DNA from: Deltaproteobacteria bacterium
GTDB lineage: Bacteria; Desulfobacterota; Desulfobacteria; Desulfobacterales; Desulfobacteraceae
NCBI GenBank assembly: GCA_019314105.1
Contig: JAFCZY010000253.1
Location: forward strand, 1-8,908
Length of the DNA: 8,908 nt
Reading direction: 5' to 3'
The translations under genes and the position numbers were made by a program. Each line of letters opens with the position of its first letter. Positions within the stretch are counted from its first letter, which is position 1. The notes beneath the pieces were generated by a model. It ran no database searches. It worked only from the letters and a program-made list of their open reading frames with translations, and was not told where the DNA came from. This document shows, piece by piece, positions 489 through 8,875 of this stretch.

Positions 489-1811
489 TTACATGGCCGA
501 TTCAGGGTGAAATACGTTTACTTCTTTTAAGTCATCACCCAGATATTCCCGTTCATTGGGTCCTAAAATTCCCAAAGACAGGCAAATCAATGTCCACAAG
601 TGAACCACAGGATAATTTCCGCCATAATGTTCGCTCAGTTCATGGATCTGGGCATGGCAATTATGACAGCCGGCAATACAATAGTCAGCTCCGGTGGCTT
701 TAATCTGGTCATCTTTTATTTTTCCATAGGCAAGGCGTTCATCTTTAAATCCTGATTGAAGGAAACCGCCGCCGCCGCCACAACAATAATTATTGGATCT
801 ATTGGGTTGCATGTCTATAAAATTTTCTTCCCCCACAATAGATCTAACGACAAAGCGCAGGTCTTCGGCAATGGGATCACCATAACTTTTTCTTACGATT
901 TGACAAGGATCCTGTACGGTAAATTTTATTTTAAGATCTTTATTCCAGTCGGAATTGACCTTTAATTTTCCTTCACGGATCCATTTTGCATAATATTCAT
1001 ATATGTTTTTAATTTCAAAATTATGCTCAAGGTTGTATTTTTTCACTCCTGCCAGGACTGAAAAGGTAACGTGACCTCACTCGGTGTTGAGGTACGTCTT
1101 ACACCCGAGCTTATTGGCCTGATCCACACTTATCCCCGTTGTTTTTTTCCAGGCATCGTCATCTGCCAGGAACATGCAGTAATTCTCGCCTCCCCATCCG
1201 CGGCTGCCATACGTCCAGTCCGCGCCTACCAGATGGAGTATTTTCCATAAGGGTACCATCTCATCCGGTTCTGTCACCGGTTCTCTGGAATTCTGGTTCA
1301 GGAAAAATTCAGCCCCTTCTTTGTCAATGGGGGCCTGCATATCTGCGAATTCCGGTTGGGCCTCCTGGTATTCTTCCAATACATCCCCGACCACAAATTC
1401 AAAGTCATCCGGTGCAGCTCCCATGGCGCTGCAACTTTCATTTTTCAGAGCCATGTCACAGGAGCCTAAAATTCCTTTTGGTCTTTCTTCTCTGGGACGA
1501 AGCGCTCTGGCATTAAAGATTAATTGTGGGATATCAATTTTCATGGGACAGACATAAATGCACCGCTGACACATGGTGCACATCCAGGGCCAGTCAGATT
1601 TGGCAATTTCTTCATCCATGCCTAACGCAGCCATGCGAAGAAATTTTCTGGGGTCCATATTATCAAGCCCTGTGGCAGGACACCCTGAGGCACATGCGCC
1701 ACACGTTAAACAGGCGCTTAAATTACCACCGTCCGGCAGTAATTCTTTGACTTTATCCAAAAAAATGTTTGACCGTTTCTTATTTCCAAGCTTAATGACA
1801 GCTACCGTCAT
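489..1811 (-). CDS. HdrD/GlpC-like Fe-S oxidoreductase, predicted selenoprotein (440 aa, Sec245 by UGA)
   Basis: Predicted cytoplasmic electron-transfer protein of the heterodisulfide reductase D / GlpC / DsrK type, whose members pass electrons to or from disulfides or quinones through iron-sulfur clusters. Residues 34-44 (CLTCGACASGC) and 78-88 (CTMCQRCIYVC) are two classical [4Fe-4S] ferredoxin motifs. A C-terminal CCG domain follows: Cys303 in DPCQ, Cys343-Cys344-Gly, then Cys382-x2-Cys385. The frame is interrupted only by TGA at 1079-1077. It falls exactly where the family has Cys in an E-C-G-H motif (here NTE-TGA-GHVTFS), and a SECIS-like hairpin follows, so I read it as selenocysteine. 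The ATG at 1811 has an AAAGGA site seven bases upstream and lies 19 bases after the CGGC gene, implying co-transcription. The substrate is unknown and no HdrE-type membrane partner is visible. The alternative is a nonsense mutation. Confidence 0.85.
1040..1064 (-). promoter_or_regulatory. Bacterial SECIS element
   Basis: In the mRNA, UUUUCA pairs with UGAAAA (six pairs), then a G-G mismatch, then UCCU pairs with AGGA (four pairs) around a GGC triloop. The first loop G is 24 nt after the UGA. Bacterial SECIS elements lie within the coding region just downstream of UGA, with a small loop carrying G in the first positions roughly 16-37 nt away, so geometry and loop both fit SelB recognition. The 3' arm contains AGGAGUG, which imitates a ribosome binding site beside a GTG codon. 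Confidence 0.8.
1077..1079 (-). other. In-frame TGA read as selenocysteine (residue 245)
   Basis: The codon separates 244 upstream codons from 195 downstream codons in the same reading frame. Translation on both sides continues one family without loss or duplication, and the TGA occupies a conserved Cys position (E-C-G-H). Cys-to-Sec replacement is a known pattern, and Fe-S oxidoreductases of the GlpC/Hdr group are an established bacterial selenoprotein family. Confidence 0.85.
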
Positions 1812-1830: not shown

Positions 1831-2175
1831 TTAATGGTAATCATGAGTGCCGACAACAACCTCAATACCCGTTTTTTCTTTTATGATATTTGCCAGGTCT
1901 TTTGCCCCGGTATAGGGACATCCGGGTACGGCATTGGTCAGGCAGGAACTCAAATATATTTTATCCGGTTTGATTTCAGACAATTTCATTGCCATGTCAA
2001 TACTGGATACAACAGTCCTTCCGGGACATTCACATTTGACAAAGGCAACAACCTGTGAGGGGTTTTTGAATGTACCATCACCCCGTGACGCTGCTTTCAG
2101 GCACCGCCATTCGCCCGGGCATCCGTAACCCTGGTCCATATATGAACCGCACCCGACAACCGCTACTTTTTCCAT
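1831..2175 (-). CDS. CGGC-domain-like cysteine-rich small protein (114 aa)
   Basis: A small soluble protein beginning MEKVAVVGCGSYMDQG. It has about eight cysteines: GCGSY near residue 9, CPGEWRC around 19-25, a KCECPGR motif near 48, and SSCLTNAVPGC around 77-87. The arrangement resembles the CGGC domain, a Rossmann-like fold with a conserved C-x-x-C-P-G-like element and suspected metal or redox binding; CECPG would be a shortened version. The ATG at 2175 has AAGGAGAG seven bases upstream, so the longer frame reaching 2226 is rejected. It is the first gene of a unit with the selenoprotein 19 bases downstream, and expression may depend on a sigma-54 element at 2241-2256. Co-transcription with an Hdr-like protein suggests a redox or electron-carrier role, which is inference. 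Confidence 0.8.
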   Translation of the reverse strand: MEKVAVVGCGSYMDQGYGCPGEWRCLKAASRGDGTFKNPSQVVAFVKCECPGRTVVSSIDMAMKLSEIKPDKIYLSSCLTNAVPGCPYTGAKDLANIIKEKTGIEVVVGTHDYH

Positions 2176-2240: not shown

Positions 2241-2256
2241 AGCATAATGCATGCCA
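2241..2256 (-). promoter_or_regulatory. Candidate sigma-54 (-24/-12) promoter for the CGGC-selenoprotein unit
   Basis: The minus strand reads TGGCATGCATTATGCT. Compared with TGGCACG-N4-TTGCW, the invariant GG and GC doublets are present at exactly the right spacing, with two mismatches at less critical positions. Transcription would start near 2230, leaving about 55 bases before the ATG at 2175. The overlap with an ATGCAT palindrome slightly raises the chance of coincidence. If real, the unit needs an enhancer-binding activator. Confidence 0.55.
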
Positions 2257-3150: not shown

Positions 3151-3924
3151 TTACAGCCTTGATGCCAGTACGGCGGCACCAATGGCGCCATTCACCTGGG
3201 CAAAATCTTCCACAATGAGTTCAAATCCAAGGCGCTTTTCAAGGGCGGCTACCATGCCTTTGTTTTTTGCCACACCACCGGTCATCATTACCGGTTCTTT
3301 GATATTGATTTTAAAAGCAAGGATGGCAACACGGGCGGCGGCAGATTCATGAATGCCGGCAATAATGTTTTCCCTTTTCTGCAACCCTGCGATCATGGAA
3401 ATGACTTCTGATTCTGCAAACACCGTGCAGATGCTGCTGATTTTTGACGGTTTGTCTGCCTTAAGACTGAAGTCTCCCATTTGATCTAAACTCACTTCCA
3501 GGGCATTGGCCATGACTTCAATAAAGCGGCCTGTACCTGCTGCACATTTGTCATTCATGGCAAAGTTTTCAACTTGGCCGTTTTTATCCAGAAGAATAGC
3601 TTTGCTGTCCTGGCCGCCGACATCAATTATTCCCCGTATATTGGGATTCATAAAATGCGCACCGGTTCCATGACAGATGATTTCCGTCATGGCTTTGTCT
3701 GCGAACTTTACGCTGGCGCTGGCCCGGCCATAGCCCGTGGAAACAATGGCTGCTATATCTGTTTTTGAAACCGCCACTTTTTCTAAAAGTGCATCAAAAA
3801 CTGTGATCCCTGCGGTTAAGGGATTATACCCGCTCGGTATGACATGGGTGCCCAGAAGTCGATTTTTTTTTATTAACGCGGCCTTGGCGGTGCTGGAACC
3901 AATATCAATACCGGCATAAATCAT
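3151..3924 (-). CDS. ATP-dependent activator of 2-hydroxyacyl-CoA dehydratase / benzoyl-CoA reductase family (257 aa)
   Basis: BadF/BadG/BcrA/BcrD-type ATPase of the ASKHA fold, which couples ATP hydrolysis to injection of one low-potential electron into its partner enzyme. The phosphate-1 loop GIDIGSSTAKAA (5-16) and phosphate-2 loop DVGGQDSKAI (101-110) are intact, as is a late MTGGVAKNKG adenosine motif (214-223). Cys127 (NDKCAAGTGRF) and Cys166 (SSICTVFAESE) match the two cysteines that, contributed by each monomer, hold the single [4Fe-4S] cluster between subunits in HgdC. The length is typical. The ATG at 3924 is two bases after the upstream stop (TAACATG), with AAAGGAG eight bases before it, so translation is probably coupled; a longer frame to 3966 is rejected. 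There is only one activator gene, as in HgdC or HadI systems, not the BcrA/BcrD pair of class I benzoyl-CoA reductase. Confidence 0.93.
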   Translation of the reverse strand: MIYAGIDIGSSTAKAALIKKNRLLGTHVIPSGYNPLTAGITVFDALLEKVAVSKTDIAAIVSTGYGRASASVKFADKAMTEIICHGTGAHFMNPNIRGIIDVGGQDSKAILLDKNGQVENFAMNDKCAAGTGRFIEVMANALEVSLDQMGDFSLKADKPSKISSICTVFAESEVISMIAGLQKRENIIAGIHESAAARVAILAFKINIKEPVMMTGGVAKNKGMVAALEKRLGFELIVEDFAQVNGAIGAAVLASRL

Positions 3925-3925
3925 G

Positions 3926-5131
3926 TTAACGGCTCCTTTGTTTGATGATTTCCATGAAGGCATCAATCCGGGTTTCCACCTGAGAATGGGAGAAATTTCT
4001 GGGGTCCACCATATCGGCTTCTATCATGAGAACCGGAATATCTGTTTTTTCCCGGACGATTCTCATAATATCCATCTGTCCGAAAGAGTAGGGCTTGCAG
4101 GAACGGTTTGAATGCATGACAAAACCGTTTACATCATAGAACTTAATCATATCAAGTACCTGGTTTGCCATCTGATCAACACCGATATTCAGATAGATCC
4201 GGGTATAGGCTTCGGCAATGGAATCCAAAAAATTATTTTTATCCGTATATTTTATGGCACCACACCAGGCCGAGGTATAAGTGTCTGCTACAAGGCAGGC
4301 ATTGTGATCGGAGAATTTGTTGGACAGCCACTTGAGCCGGTACCAGATCGGCAGATTATCCCATAAAAGTCTGTGTTTTTCATTGGGGACCATACTGATG
4401 CCATCTTTGATGCGCTGCCTCATTTCTGCTAACAGGTCTTTATAAAAACCAACAGCGATCTGCGTCCCCCGTAATGTGACAATCAGGGCAAGGAAAAAGA
4501 ATGCATCAAAGGCAGACATGGGCGATGGTTTGTGGGCAGTGGTGTTGAGGACTTTCTGCCAGAGCACCTGGCTTTCATAGGCAAGTTTGCCCACCTGCGC
4601 CATTTTGTCGTAATCAAATTTTCTTTTTGTGATTTTTTCAAGAAAAATAATATATTCATCAATCTGGGCCCGGACATATTTGGCGACTTCAGGAGAATAT
4701 CGGGTATGGCAGATGGGGGTATCTAGGATAAACAGGGGCACATTATAATACCTTGCCTGGACTTCATACCATTTTAGTACCGTGCCGCAGATATTATTGC
4801 AGCAGATCAGCATGTCCGGTTTTGGTAATCCCCCTATGGAGATATCTGTCCTTGCATAGGAACACAGGTCTGAGCTGTATCCCATATTTTCAGCTTTTAT
4901 GCATAGATCTTCTCCCATTTTGGATGCGCCAATCATGGCCCCATGATTTTCAGGATAAATGGGGATGATATCCATTGCTACCAGAGGTTCTACAGGTCCG
5001 CCGGAAGTAATCCAGGCCACCTGTTTATTGTTCTGTTCTGCGGTCATGGCATCCAGATAATAGGTGGTCATGATATCCCGCATTTTTTTGGCACAGTTTA
5101 TTTTTTTTGGGTCTGAAGACTTGTCTGACAT
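3926..5131 (-). CDS. 2-hydroxyacyl-CoA dehydratase family, HgdA/HadB/BcrB-type subunit (401 aa)
   Basis: One of two homologous iron-sulfur subunits forming the catalytic component that takes the electron from the activator and reduces an acyl-CoA thioester to a ketyl radical (2-hydroxyacyl-CoA dehydratases) or dearomatises an aryl-CoA (benzoyl-CoA reductases). Family signatures are seen in order: IPIYPENHGA (56-65), DLCSYARTD (89-97), LICCNNICGT (109-117), HSNRSCKPYS (340-349) and EADMVDPRNFS (371-381). Cys90, one of the Cys110/111/115 group, and Cys345 are the likely cluster ligands. Wording around YPEN, CCNNIC and NRSCK is closer in my reading to HadB/HgdA than to Thauera BcrB, but the ends resemble both. 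The start at 5131 has AAAGGA seven bases upstream and lies 13 bases after the partner gene. It is intact; the substrate is unknown. Confidence 0.9.
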   Translation of the reverse strand: MSDKSSDPKKINCAKKMRDIMTTYYLDAMTAEQNNKQVAWITSGGPVEPLVAMDIIPIYPENHGAMIGASKMGEDLCIKAENMGYSSDLCSYARTDISIGGLPKPDMLICCNNICGTVLKWYEVQARYYNVPLFILDTPICHTRYSPEVAKYVRAQIDEYIIFLEKITKRKFDYDKMAQVGKLAYESQVLWQKVLNTTAHKPSPMSAFDAFFFLALIVTLRGTQIAVGFYKDLLAEMRQRIKDGISMVPNEKHRLLWDNLPIWYRLKWLSNKFSDHNACLVADTYTSAWCGAIKYTDKNNFLDSIAEAYTRIYLNIGVDQMANQVLDMIKFYDVNGFVMHSNRSCKPYSFGQMDIMRIVREKTDIPVLMIEADMVDPRNFSHSQVETRIDAFMEIIKQRSR

Positions 5132-5144
5132 CTGTGAGTCCTTT

Positions 5145-6257
5145 TTAAATATAATGAATAAAGGTTTCAAAACGGGTAGATAGCTGCCCGAGATTTTGCT
5201 GCTGATCATCTATTTCAATCAAAAGGGTTTTAATTCCTTCTTTTTCAAGGAATTCTTTTAAATAGGGATAATCAAAAGCATGGGGATCACAGAATTTGAG
5301 CAGCAGAAAAACAACTCCGGCTGCCTTGTTTTTCCGGGCAAGGGATACTATATTTTCACCACGGGCCGTTGGCGAAGAATGTTTGGCCGGACAGATCATG
5401 CGACCCATATATCTTTCGGCAATGGCAACCAAGGGCGCATCATCTTCCAGCGTCAGGCCTTCAAACCATCGCTGGCCTGTACAAAGATCATCCCCGACAA
5501 TAATGCCTCCGGCTGTTTCAATGACTGAATAAATATCAGGGGAATCACAGATTGAACCTGTGAGGACAATTCGTTTGCCTTTTGTTTCAGGAGCATCCGT
5601 TTTCTCAAGATTGTTCACAATAACAGGTAAAAGATTCGCCACTTCATCTTTGTCCATTATCATTGATCCCTTGACAATGGCATAGAGATCAGCACCTTTT
5701 ATGATTCCAGGCTTTTTGGATTGAAGCGCATAAATTTTTGAAAGATTGCTGCGGATCAGATTAAATTTTTTGATGGATTTTTGAAGATCAGCATCTGTTA
5801 TCTCCCTGTTGATTGCTGCCTCAAGATCTTTTTTAAATCGGGTCAGTACATCCACCATATACGTTCTGGCACTCTGGGTATTCAGCTTGGCAGGCAGGAT
5901 GACATCTGCAAAAAATTCATATCGCCCCTGCATTCGCCAGATATCACTCAGGCGCTGAATGGAATCGCAGGTATGGGGAAACACGGTCCCATCAAGGAAA
6001 TCAAGCCGTCCTGAAAGGCTGTCTTCAAGTATGCCTCGAACCAGAGAGCAGCAATAGGTCTGGAGGTGATTTTCTGCCAGGATAATATCAGATTTTGAAG
6101 AAAACAGCCGCATGGGATGAAAGCCTGCTGCATATATCAATTCCTCCGGTGCATAGGAACACAGGTACCCGATAATTTTTTTCTGGTTTTCTTTAATTTT
6201 GGAAGCAAGGGCTGATACGTCTTTTAGGGCGTTATGAAAAATCTTGATTTCTTTCAT
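5145..6257 (-). CDS. 2-hydroxyacyl-CoA dehydratase family, HgdB/HadC/BcrC-type subunit (370 aa)
   Basis: Partner of the 401-residue subunit and first gene of the operon. Recognisable family segments are YAPEELIYAAGFHPMRLF (35-52), YCCSLVRGILE (68-78), DFLDGTVFPHTCDSIQ (86-101), VLTGSICDSPD (231-241), GGIIVGDDLCTG (250-261) and LLKFCDPHAFDYP (319-331), ending in the IEIDDQ and FETF motifs usual for these subunits. Cys69 or Cys70, Cys97 and Cys323 are the likely three protein ligands of its [4Fe-4S] cluster. The ATG at 6257 is chosen for its GGAG nine bases upstream; the longer frame to 6359 would run through the promoter and palindrome, so it is rejected. All key cysteines are present and the length is normal. 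Expression is probably controlled by the divergent TetR protein through the palindrome at 6345-6362. Confidence 0.9.
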   Translation of the reverse strand: MKEIKIFHNALKDVSALASKIKENQKKIIGYLCSYAPEELIYAAGFHPMRLFSSKSDIILAENHLQTYCCSLVRGILEDSLSGRLDFLDGTVFPHTCDSIQRLSDIWRMQGRYEFFADVILPAKLNTQSARTYMVDVLTRFKKDLEAAINREITDADLQKSIKKFNLIRSNLSKIYALQSKKPGIIKGADLYAIVKGSMIMDKDEVANLLPVIVNNLEKTDAPETKGKRIVLTGSICDSPDIYSVIETAGGIIVGDDLCTGQRWFEGLTLEDDAPLVAIAERYMGRMICPAKHSSPTARGENIVSLARKNKAAGVVFLLLKFCDPHAFDYPYLKEFLEKEGIKTLLIEIDDQQQNLGQLSTRFETFIHYI

Positions 6258-6324
6258 ATTAAGTATCTCCAGTGTATTCACCTTTTTGGTGAAACGTTTC
6301 AATCCTGAAACACATCTTTGTCTG
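6258..6324 (-). promoter_or_regulatory. Leader of the dehydratase operon with two tandem hairpins
   Basis: From the predicted start near 6324 the transcript first forms GUUUCA-GGAU-UGAAAC (6311-6296), extendable by two G-U pairs, and then UUCACC-AAAAA-GGUGAA (6293-6277). Both six-pair stems are perfect and only two bases apart; the second ends six bases before the GGAG ribosome site. No T-run follows, so this is not a simple terminator. At DNA level TGAAACGTTTCA (6290-6301) is also a perfect 12-bp palindrome and could bind a protein. Confidence 0.45.
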
Positions 6325-6330
6325 TCGGTT

Positions 6331-6359
6331 TCTATATCGAACACCGGTCGACATGTCAA
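6331..6359 (-). promoter_or_regulatory. Sigma-70-type promoter of the dehydratase operon
   Basis: On the minus strand TTGACA (6359-6354) is followed after exactly 17 bases by TATAGA (6336-6331), a perfect -35 box and a four-of-six -10 box. The expected start near 6324 leaves a leader of about 65 bases. The -35 box is part of the 18-bp palindrome at 6345-6362, so a bound regulator would block polymerase. Confidence 0.7.
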
Positions 6360-6362
6360 CCG
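6345..6362. promoter_or_regulatory. 18-bp palindromic operator candidate for the TetR regulator
   Basis: CGGTCGACATGTCAACCG is an inverted repeat with one mismatched pair (CGGTnGACATGTCnACCG). TetR proteins bind such palindromes as dimers, usually in the divergent region beside their own gene. This one covers the -35 box of the dehydratase operon and lies about 70 bases upstream of the regulator start, which suggests repression of the operon and possibly of the regulator itself. The pairing with this TetR protein is inferred from position. Confidence 0.6.
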
Positions 6363-6366
6363 CTAC

Positions 6367-6395
6367 TTGATTGCATTTTTATTTTATGTTATTCA
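6367..6395 (+). promoter_or_regulatory. Weak candidate promoter for the TetR gene
   Basis: TTGATT (6367-6372) and TATTCA (6390-6395) are 17 bases apart. The -35 box has four matches and the -10 box three. The location, just beyond the palindrome and about 35 bases before the ATG at 6432, is suitable, but the boxes are poor and the region is AT-rich. Confidence 0.3.
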
Positions 6396-6431
6396 GCATA
6401 AATTGAATTAATCGAAAGATACAGGACAGGT

Positions 6432-7046
6432 ATGACGAAAAAAGACACCTTGCTCAAGCTCAAGGAAAAAGAACGGGAACAAAGACAAATTCTCATTATC
6501 GAGGCGGCAAGAGAAGTGTTTGGGAAGGACACCTACGACAAGGTCAGCATGGCTGAAATTGCAAATGCTGCAGGAATTGCCAAGTCTTCCATTTATACCT
6601 ATTTTAAAAGTCAGGAAGAATTATACGCAAGGATAGCTTATCAGGATGCCTGTGTTTTTATTAAAGAACTGGAAAACAGGATTTACAAAAAAGATAAAGA
6701 TATCATAAAAACAGCCATTGAATATTTTCTGGATTATTATATTGCCCACGAAGCCCAGTGGAGGATGATTACCCATTTTGCCCTTCATGGTAACAAGGAC
6801 ATGGGGTCTGTGGACAAACTTAATGAGATCGGTCGGGGGCTCATGGATGTGGTTGAGACGATTTTTATTTATTCGGGTTGTAAAACAGATACAAGATTGA
6901 TGTCCCACACACTTTTTTCCTGCCTTTCAGGTGTTTTGATTGCTTTCAGGAATTATCCGGGCAGGTCTGAAAAGGAGCGAATTATCCATATGAAACGAAT
7001 CGGTTCTGTGATCGAATCAATGATCATTGCGCTCATCAATCAGTGA
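6432..7046 (+). CDS. TetR/AcrR-family transcriptional regulator (204 aa)
   Basis: A one-component repressor-type protein. A Lys/Glu-rich leader (1-18) is followed by the TetR DNA-binding domain: IIEAAREVFGKDTYDKVSM, then the helix-turn-helix AEIANAAGIAKSSIYTYFKS (41-60) and the usual EELYARI helix. The remaining 130 or so residues form the variable ligand-binding and dimerisation domain. Length is typical. The ATG at 6432 has AGGA five bases upstream. It is divergent from the dehydratase operon, and a palindrome overlaps that operon's -35 box, so local control in response to an acyl-CoA or related substrate is likely; the ligand is inferred from context only. Downstream, 25 bases away, lies a decayed FAD-dependent reductase gene that may once have been co-transcribed. 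Confidence 0.9.
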   Translation: MTKKDTLLKLKEKEREQRQILIIEAAREVFGKDTYDKVSMAEIANAAGIAKSSIYTYFKSQEELYARIAYQDACVFIKELENRIYKKDKDIIKTAIEYFLDYYIAHEAQWRMITHFALHGNKDMGSVDKLNEIGRGLMDVVETIFIYSGCKTDTRLMSHTLFSCLSGVLIAFRNYPGRSEKERIIHMKRIGSVIESMIIALINQ

Positions 7047-7521: not shown

Positions 7522-7571
7522 CTTAAGAAACACAGATGGATTTTAATTTATATGAAAAGGAGATGTATAGT

Positions 7572-8875
7572 ATGAAAAAGTTTGGTCTAATAATTATTTA
7601 TTTGATATGTTCGATTTCTGTTGCCTTTGCAGGTGATGAAGCACCCACAATCGCTTCCAATAAAACAGCGATTGATCTTGTTCAATCCCATGCAGATTAT
7701 GTCTGGACCCTTGTTGCTGCAATGTTTGTCTTTTTTATGCAGGCAGGTTTTGCCATGGTTGAAGCAGGATTCACAAGGGCAAAAAATGCTGTTAATATTA
7801 TGATGAAAAACTTGATGGATTTTTCCATGGGGTCCATTGCGTATTGGGCGGTCGGGTTCGGCCTGATGTTTGGTGTTTCTAAAACCGGTTTTTTCGGCAC
7901 TTCGGGTTTCTTTTTAAGTGATTTTAAGGTGGGCGGTGATCCCAGGGTATTGGCATTCTGGATGTTTCAGGTCGTATTTGCCGCTACCGCAGCAACCATT
8001 GTATCCGGTGCCATGGCAGAAAGAACCAAGTTTTCCGGATACCTCATCTATTCCGTGGTTGTTTCTGGGCTGATTTATCCAATTTTCGGGAGTTGGGCAT
8101 GGGGAAGCCTGTTCAATGGAAGCGGGTGGCTTGAAGGGCTTGGATTTATTGATTTTGCCGGAAAGTTAAACCCATACTGGGGCACAACATTCCATTGGCC
8201 GCCATAGGCGTTTTTGTCCTCTGGCTGGGCTGGTTTGGATTTAACCCGGGATCAACCACAGCAGCCTCTAAAGACATTGCTATGATTTTTGTCAATACAA
8301 ACCTTTCCGCCGCCGCCGGTGCCATTATGGCCATGTTTGTTTCATGGCTCAAGTTTGGAAAACCTGAAGTGGGTATGAGCTTGAATGGCGCATTGGCAGG
8401 GCTTGTCGGAATTACGGCCGGATGTGCCAATGTCACGCCTACAAGTTCAATTGTCATCGGTGCCGTTGCCGGTATGATTGTTGTATTTTCCGTAGTGTTT
8501 TTTGACAGGCTGAAAATTGATGATCCTGTGGGCGCTATTTCTGTTCATGGTGTATGTGGCGCCTGGGGAACTCTTGCAGCTGGTATTTTTAATATTGGCG
8601 GCACGACACTTAGTATATTGGGTGTTCAGTTAATCGGAATTGCAGCCTGTTTTTTCTGGACATTTCCAGTGGCGTATCTGTTGTTTAAACTGATTGATAT
8701 AACAATGGGGCTGAGAGTCTCAACGGAAGAGGAGCTTGAAGGTCTTGATGCGACAGAACATGGTGGTAATGCATATCCTGATTTTACAACCGTCAATCAT
8801 GGAACCCTGGGAGATTCAGACAGATCCGCCAAGTCGAAATATGAGCACGCTCGTCTTTTGCATCTGAAAACTTGA
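7572..8875 (+). pseudogene. amt: Ammonium transporter (Amt family), broken by an internal out-of-frame deletion
   Basis: Amt/Mep/Rh channel for ammonium uptake. The N-terminal half (7572-8207, 211 codons) has a signal peptide (cleavage after VAFA, residue 20) and typical segments MQAGFAMVEAGFTRAKN, FQVVFAATAATIVSGAMAER and GFIDFAG (191-197). After GFIDFAG the frame runs into KLNPYW and stops at 8205. From about 8161 another frame resumes the family with KVKPILGHNIPLAAIGVFV and continues through WLGWFGFNPGS and AISVHGVCGAWGT to the stop at 8873. Between the halves about 30 conserved residues are missing, normally beginning S/GTVVH and containing the first twin pore histidine; the second (SVHG) remains. 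This is a deletion plus frame shift, not one miscalled base. The sigma-54 promoter and ribosome site are intact. The C-terminus extends about 30 residues beyond the usual YPDF end. Confidence 0.85.

Follow-up and report, generated by a model that had tools for sequence, protein, structure and literature searches.

Does the locus considered here hold two truncated genes or a single one read through a stop codon and, in the latter case, what would its product do? The question concerns the minus strand of the window—the whole analysed stretch of 8,908 nucleotides (nt) of the contig JAFCZY010000253.1 (assembly GCA_019314105.1) from a deltaproteobacterium of the family Desulfobacteraceae—in which a gene for an iron-sulfur (Fe-S) protein of the heterodisulfide reductase HdrD type is interrupted by an in-frame TGA. 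The UGA codon 245 of this gene (489-1811) is predicted to specify selenocysteine (Sec, U), a reading that is near certain because of the comparison across relatives, i.e. a column conserved as TGA or Cys and a covarying hairpin behind it.

The in-frame TGA and its hairpin

The gene, the codon and the hairpin are located as follows:

489..1811, minus strand: predicted gene of an HdrD-type (HdrC-HdrB fusion) Fe-S selenoprotein, 440 codons plus TAA, translated with TGA as U
1077..1079, minus strand: in-frame TGA, predicted Sec codon 245; among 117 distinct genes, 107 have TGA here and 10 encode Cys
1044..1060, minus strand: hairpin of the selenocysteine insertion sequence (SECIS) type, seven paired columns, GGC loop (1051-1053); one pair is a G.G mismatch in the window copy

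An earlier note, made from the sequence alone, had proposed that two minus-strand frames are the halves of one protein divided by the TGA, and the analysis bears this out: the frame is a single one, running over 440 residues to its TAA, and the only earlier stop under translation table 11 is the TGA of codon 245, lying in the context NTE-U-GHV. As the note had expected of an ordinary gene caller, table 11 yields open reading frames of 244 (1077-1811) and 185 residues (489-1046). Among the Pfam domains, 4Fe-4S is found upstream and CCG downstream of the TGA, and the NCBIfam models TmcB, HmcF and DsrK match both halves at successive model positions. Concerning the assertion that the TGA occupies the place of a conserved cysteine, the 54 database homologues used among the 120 listed all have a Cys aligned with residue 245; none of the 120 ends at the TGA, all of them being 412-532 residues long in a search confined to proteins with at least 0.55 of the length of the query.

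A homologue at E ≤ 1e-30 is present in 141 of 145 genomes, the window's own counted, and the best 30 matches among these genomes each contain one TGA. With the codon taken from the fetched loci and identical contexts counted once (window included), the relatives of at least 60% identity have TGA in 94 and TGC in 4 of 98 distinct contexts; when more distant loci are added, down to 50% identity, TGA is found in 107 and Cys codons in 10 of 117. Sampling across the phylum gave a match at 1e-60 in 82 of 297 genomes, and among still more distant genes (19 aligned of 20 fetched) the codon-245 column has TGA in 10, at 36-44% identity, and Cys in 9. The idea, prompted by the stop counts, that TAA or TAG might serve as an alternative Sec codon was abandoned: the 29 loci fetched to this end (L135-L163) all have either TGA or Cys at residue 245, and the one remaining stop, in L154, is a TAG at residue 434.

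In bacteria, according to the position rule of the bSECISearch model, the SECIS hairpin lies just after the UGA and has a G in its apical loop. Counted from the T of the TGA, the stem starts 19 nt and the loop 26 nt downstream; the 48 nt from the TGA onward align among the relatives without gaps, and the apical loop is GGC in 79 of the 107 TGA genes, the hairpin being of the SECIS type as judged by sequence comparison. The seven pairs are standard in 98.5% of the cells in the 107 TGA genes versus 11-41% in controls slid by a base or two, while the 10 Cys genes reach 40%, similar to their own slid controls (16-44%). The mean predicted hairpin energies are -11.1 kcal/mol for the TGA genes and -3.8 kcal/mol for the Cys genes. 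Covariation, evaluated with 51 of the 107 sequences, revealed two-sided changes in four of the seven pairs and 40 two-sided change cells as compared with 12.8 in shuffles, none of 500 shuffles being as high; since the shuffles ignore relatedness, it should be pointed out that the slid controls, which preserve it, do not exceed 15 cells. The GGC-loop hairpin that the note had described at SECIS distance is therefore present and covarying in the TGA members, and it is maintained in them but not in the Cys members. Taken alone, the 49-nt stretch of the window folds modestly better than chance (z -1.32, equalled by 21 of 200 shuffles), its G.G mismatch being common to nine of the 107 TGA genes, the window among them. 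A scan of the window with Rfam gave no match at gathering scores, and no tandem repeats were found in it.

The decoding machinery named in the note as a check is complete in the window's own genome, with selA, selB, selD and tRNA-Sec (selC) each above its cut-off; selD contains an in-frame TGA itself.

The competing explanation takes the TGA as a genuine stop, caused by a nonsense mutation, a pseudogene or a sequencing error. It can refer to table 11, which terminates the frame there, and to the fragmented assembly of 478 contigs with further apparent frame breaks. Some observations also detract from the Sec reading: the two groups are not fully separated by hairpin energy, the Cys genes going down to -8.5 kcal/mol and the TGA genes up to -6.9 kcal/mol; 16 of the 500 shuffles attain the observed number of two-sided pairs and 14 that of further pair types; and the gene can be absent, with no match at 1e-30 in four of the 145 genomes and no close homologue (best E 3e-38) in a genome of the same genus (G001), which is 97% complete. 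The same-codon TGA in 107 of 117 distinct genes argues, however, against chance, sequencing error and pseudogene, and the hairpin with its compensatory changes, the conserved downstream half and the Sec machinery of the genome point the same way. The conservation of the TGA and the hairpin comparison rule out the stop at face value, and this alternative, now hardly conceivable, is counted as refuted.

Protein architecture and known relatives

The predicted protein consists of three parts:

1533..1721, minus strand: HdrC-like 4Fe-4S dicluster domain, residues 31-93 (Fer4_8, Fer4_17 and others; structure match to HdrC)
927..1313, minus strand: degenerate first CCG lobe, about residues 167-295, with U245 and H247 (HdrB aligned from residue 167)
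645..920, minus strand: second CCG lobe, residues 298-389, with C303, C343, C344, C382 and C385 (PF02754)

In the predicted model, a dicluster domain of the HdrC type precedes an HdrB fold, as is characteristic of HdrD or an HdrC-HdrB fusion, and the product is very probably an HdrBC-like electron-transfer subunit. From the designation HdrD/GlpC-like used in the note, the first half can be kept, while the second cannot, the scores for the GlpC models NF008369 and TIGR03379 being 35.1 and 26.4 bits versus cut-offs of 278 and 279.9. The best NCBIfam matches, TmcB, HmcF and DsrK, are likewise below their equivalog cut-offs (167.1 versus 735, 165.4 versus 750 and 112.2 versus 400), so that all four names were rejected. 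A structure of DsrK, which may exist, was not among the listed structure matches.

As described in the accessible part of one report, HdrB has two CCG lobes, each with a noncubane cluster, and Cys581 of EtfD ligates a linear [3Fe-4S] cluster (PMC13083937). With the mycobacterial EtfD and the methanogen HdrB and HdrC, the protein studied here shares the fold, judged from the predicted model, and the cysteine pattern of the second lobe; it differs in that the ligands of the first-lobe cluster are largely lost and Sec replaces Cys. The model was aligned to EtfD residues 286-749 only, the membrane part being uncovered. By sequence, the second lobe is complete and the first one is without most ligands, unlike in an HdrD with two cluster lobes: residue 174 is Asn (His in one gene), residue 248 is never Cys in the distant-gene alignment, C212 is specific to the subfamily, and V248 occupies the equivalent of EtfD Cys584, so that the full set of four Cys that bind the linear [3Fe-4S] cluster in EtfD is not retained. 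As to the expectation of the note that Sec would alter a cluster, residue 245 does correspond, by analogy with EtfD, to one of the ligands at the first cluster site; the effect is nevertheless uncertain, because that site lacks the other ligands.

Several details tell against this architectural picture or narrow it. The similarity to HdrB in Foldseek is moderate (TM-score 0.42-0.45, normalised to the query), the HdrB profile alignment places U245 one residue off the cysteine of the CxxC, i.e. with a one-residue ambiguity, and the spacing between C212 and U245 is 33 as against 43 for EtfD Cys538-Cys581. Neither C212, which none of the 19 usable distant genes has, nor H247, which is Gly in four of the 19, is general; a Cys212-Sec245 pair was dropped as a general mechanism because of this lack of C212.

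That Sec occurs in the GlpC/Hdr-like family, as stated in the note, is in print, and the Sec claim is therefore not new. In the parts of the sources available, a selenoprotein named "Fe-S oxidoreductase (GlpC)" was reported for Deltaproteobacteria by 2006 (PMC1794560), a table of 2026 gives the UGH motif and PTHR43551 for the Fe-S oxidoreductase-like GlpC (COG0247) family (PMC13188914), a further source deals with the Fe-S oxidoreductase-like selenoprotein family (PMC9312934), WP_174406253 is a listed member of the UGH family, and hdrD4 of Desulfobacterium autotrophicum HRM2, a Wood-Ljungdahl sulfate reducer, encodes a Sec-containing soluble HdrD of the HdrCB type (PMC2702500). The window gene agrees with the UGH family in its in-frame TGA within U-Gly-His (UGHV), in the kind of protein (COG0247 type, with CCG and 4Fe-4S) and in the deltaproteobacterial host group, and with hdrD4, likened by description, in Sec and the soluble HdrCB-type HdrD. 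It differs from the UGH family in context, the operon given in the accessible literature being glpC-hdrA-frhD-frhG-frhA, with no mention there of MetVF, CGGC or sigma-54. A fused HdrBC within an hdrA-mvhD-metVF operon, together with a remark on sulfate reducers, is described for the marine Chloroflexi DscP3 in the available part of another paper (PMC5736913), as is the case for a relative of the target gene (locus L093); the target subunit, however, has Sec and a degenerate first CCG lobe, its window copy lies outside such an operon, and that part of the paper makes no mention of Sec for DscP3. In the open-licence literature, covered mostly by title listings, no description was found of a Sec-containing HdrD associated with metVF or CGGC or preceded by a sigma-54-like promoter. 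Sec in the HdrD/GlpC-type family is thus already known, and the window gene is a well-supported further member with some new context.

Gene neighbourhoods

The context was compared in 95 chosen loci with a target gene of at least 50% identity, covering diverse families and close relatives, some genomes twice and some short contigs. Within 6 kb and on the same strand, metV or metF is found in 29 of the 95, mvhD being also near in 22 of these; 15 further loci have hdrA or mvhD without metV/F, seven have CGGC, and 44 none of these genes. In L093, where Pfam and NCBIfam identify HdrA, FlpD/MvhD, DUF5981 (MetV) and MetF, the order is hdrA-mvhD-target-metV-metF. In the same locus (3574-6845), HdrA (NDCTMU) and MvhD (CCEYU) themselves have an in-frame TGA at Cys-type sites, giving three adjacent predicted selenoprotein genes in what is the sole such operon read codon by codon. 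A quick tree, with support below 80% on 36 of 95 inner branches, places the metV/F context in both large subclades, and the CGGC loci all come from the family of the window. A TGA-bearing clade from other families (L177-L181, 51-54% identical) has hdrA about 0.2 kb and mvhD about 3.2 kb away, with no match to metV/F within 6 kb.

Besides the target, the own genome encodes two more Sec proteins paralogous to it, on the contigs C339 (L099, 71%) and C147 (L164, 60%), the latter adjoining metF and hdrA. It also has three HdrA-MvhD-MetV-MetF blocks (C137, C371 and C108), in which metV directly follows mvhD and the target is absent on the fetched stretches; the MvhD has an in-frame TGA in L116 and L117 (C371 and C108) versus Cys in L115 (C137). 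Pieces of CO dehydrogenase/acetyl-CoA synthase and of dsrA, with single cdhC and dsrA pieces under the family cut-offs, are in keeping with a Wood-Ljungdahl sulfate reducer. The cdhC and dsrA matches on C229 and C322 (L184, L185, L187 and L188) are fragmentary, those of cdhC having internal stops, as a sign of assembly errors.

At the window locus itself, the neighbours upstream of the target are different:

1831..2175, minus strand: CGGC-domain gene (PF08821, Pfam), 114 residues from the ATG at 2175, with 19 nt from its stop to the ATG of the target
2242..2256, minus strand: sigma-54-like -24/-12 element TGGCATGCATTATGC, found in 15 of 15 distinct upstream regions
3151..6359, minus strand: two HGD-D subunits and a BcrAD/BadFG activase, neighbours with a candidate link to the target only

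The pairing with a CGGC gene noticed at the outset recurs: of 30 close loci, 16 (that of the window among them) have CGGC as the gene directly before the target. The possible sigma-54 promoter was also confirmed as a conserved element: upstream of CGGC, TGGCAT(G/A)(C/T)ATT(A/G)TGC (TGGCAT-N5-RTGC) is retained in all 15 distinct regions, the window's included, amid diverged sequence, each score being reached by 0-3 of 300 shuffles. Up to 300 nt upstream of the target, a site scoring at least 9 occurs in 14 of 118 distinct regions versus 1.25 expected, although single sites may be due to chance. A sigma-54 activator gene is present on the same strand in nine of 95 loci; the apparent fusion of the target to such an activator in L074 (an open frame of 992 codons) was discarded as a read through a stretch resembling neither protein. 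In the lineage of the window, the sequence context thus suggests that the target, outside a MetVF operon, is likely transcribed with the CGGC gene from a sigma-54 promoter. Elsewhere in the window (7536-8875, plus strand), an ammonium transporter gene is divided between two overlapping frames that cover consecutive portions of PF00909, which reflects a frameshift or an assembly error.

Possible function and its meaning

The proximity of metV/metF and mvhD in the relatives suggests that the protein likely supplies the HdrBC function of an Hdr-linked methylene-tetrahydrofolate reductase. As a whole, it is probably best explained as a Sec-containing HdrC-HdrB-fusion subunit passing electrons between an HdrA-MvhD-like module and a noncubane-cluster site; that it serves HdrA-MvhD(-MetVF) in particular has a somewhat better than even chance. 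SelB and tRNA-Sec would decode the UGA via the hairpin, and the HdrC part, with its two cubane clusters (C34, C37, C40, C44, C78, C81, C84 and C88), would take up the electrons and pass them to a noncubane [4Fe-4S] cluster of the second CCG lobe (C303, C343, C344, C382 and C385 plus H247, in the manner of EtfD). Apart from the C212 of the subfamily, U245 stands alone on the degenerate first lobe; it would act at a cavity facing the second-lobe cluster, where it could be a labile ligand or else a selenol attacking a substrate or partner of the disulfide type. In Wood-Ljungdahl sulfate reducers, the likely role would be the HdrBC function of an Hdr-MvhD-MetVF methylene-tetrahydrofolate reductase.

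This assignment has to be weighed against several facts. It is guilt by association, drawn from chosen, non-random loci, 59 of the 95 having, within 6 kb and on the strand of the target, neither metV/F nor CGGC (15 of the 59 have hdrA or mvhD); hdrA, mvhD, metV and metF are absent at the window locus, which is thus no HdrABC-MvhD-MetVF operon; C371 and C108 are short contigs on which a distant target gene could escape notice; and the target also adjoins unrelated genes, such as those for a helicase and a tRNA synthetase, so that several partners are possible. One alternative would make it a TmcB/HmcF/DsrK-like protein rather than a partner of HdrA-MvhD-MetVF; it would then be either the CCG subunit on the cytoplasmic side of a membrane complex or a soluble enzyme reducing a (tri)sulfide of the DsrC type. 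These three are the top NCBIfam matches, the host is likely sulfate-reducing (dsrA pieces), and CCG domains of the HdrB and TmcB types are, in the available part of one study, predicted DsrC interactors (PMC10553843); with scores so far under the equivalog cut-offs and no known partner among the labelled neighbour clusters, most neighbours being unlabelled, such a role is unlikely. Less likely still, and confined to the genus of the window, the target could give low-potential electrons to the BcrAD/BadFG activase and the HGD-D enzyme, with CGGC as a carrier or assembly factor. The HGD-D/activase block stands beside the CGGC-target pair in five of the seven CGGC loci: the order HGD-D, HGD-D, activase, TPR, CGGC, target is shared by the window, L052, L054 and L055, as well as by L133, the first HGD-D of which was not found on the fetched stretch. 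Yet L050 has the pair without the block, as does L132, where the contig ends, a divergent TPR gene lies in between, and outside the CGGC loci HGD-D is nearby only at L168 among the matches listed, on the opposite strand.

Concerning U245, it is quite conceivable, at somewhat less than an even chance, that the residue is purely a ligand of a cluster—the degenerate first-lobe one or that of the second lobe—tuning the potential without chemistry of its own. The ligand role of EtfD Cys581 cited above, in the same motif by the alignment used here, favours this, and the poor conservation of the other first-lobe ligands (residues 174 and 248, and C212 of the subfamily only) speaks against it. That U245 is a catalytic selenol rather than a plain ligand can be proposed only tentatively. 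An extended version of the HdrA-MvhD-MetVF assignment, in which the first-lobe cluster has been lost, a single Sec acts as a selenol opposite the second-lobe noncubane cluster in methylene-tetrahydrofolate reductase complexes, and HdrA, MvhD and HdrD form a Sec relay, is speculative and rather doubtful.

The gene 489-1811, which a table-11 gene caller splits in two, is by comparison a strongly supported selenoprotein gene, with homologues in 69 of the 73 genera sampled (E ≤ 1e-30), and its CGGC partner and the sigma-54-like element offer a concrete entry for expression work. If the extended version is true, the heterodisulfide reductase site would have a selenium-dependent variant, and sulfate reducers with the Wood-Ljungdahl pathway would bifurcate or confurcate electrons by means of a selenium relay.
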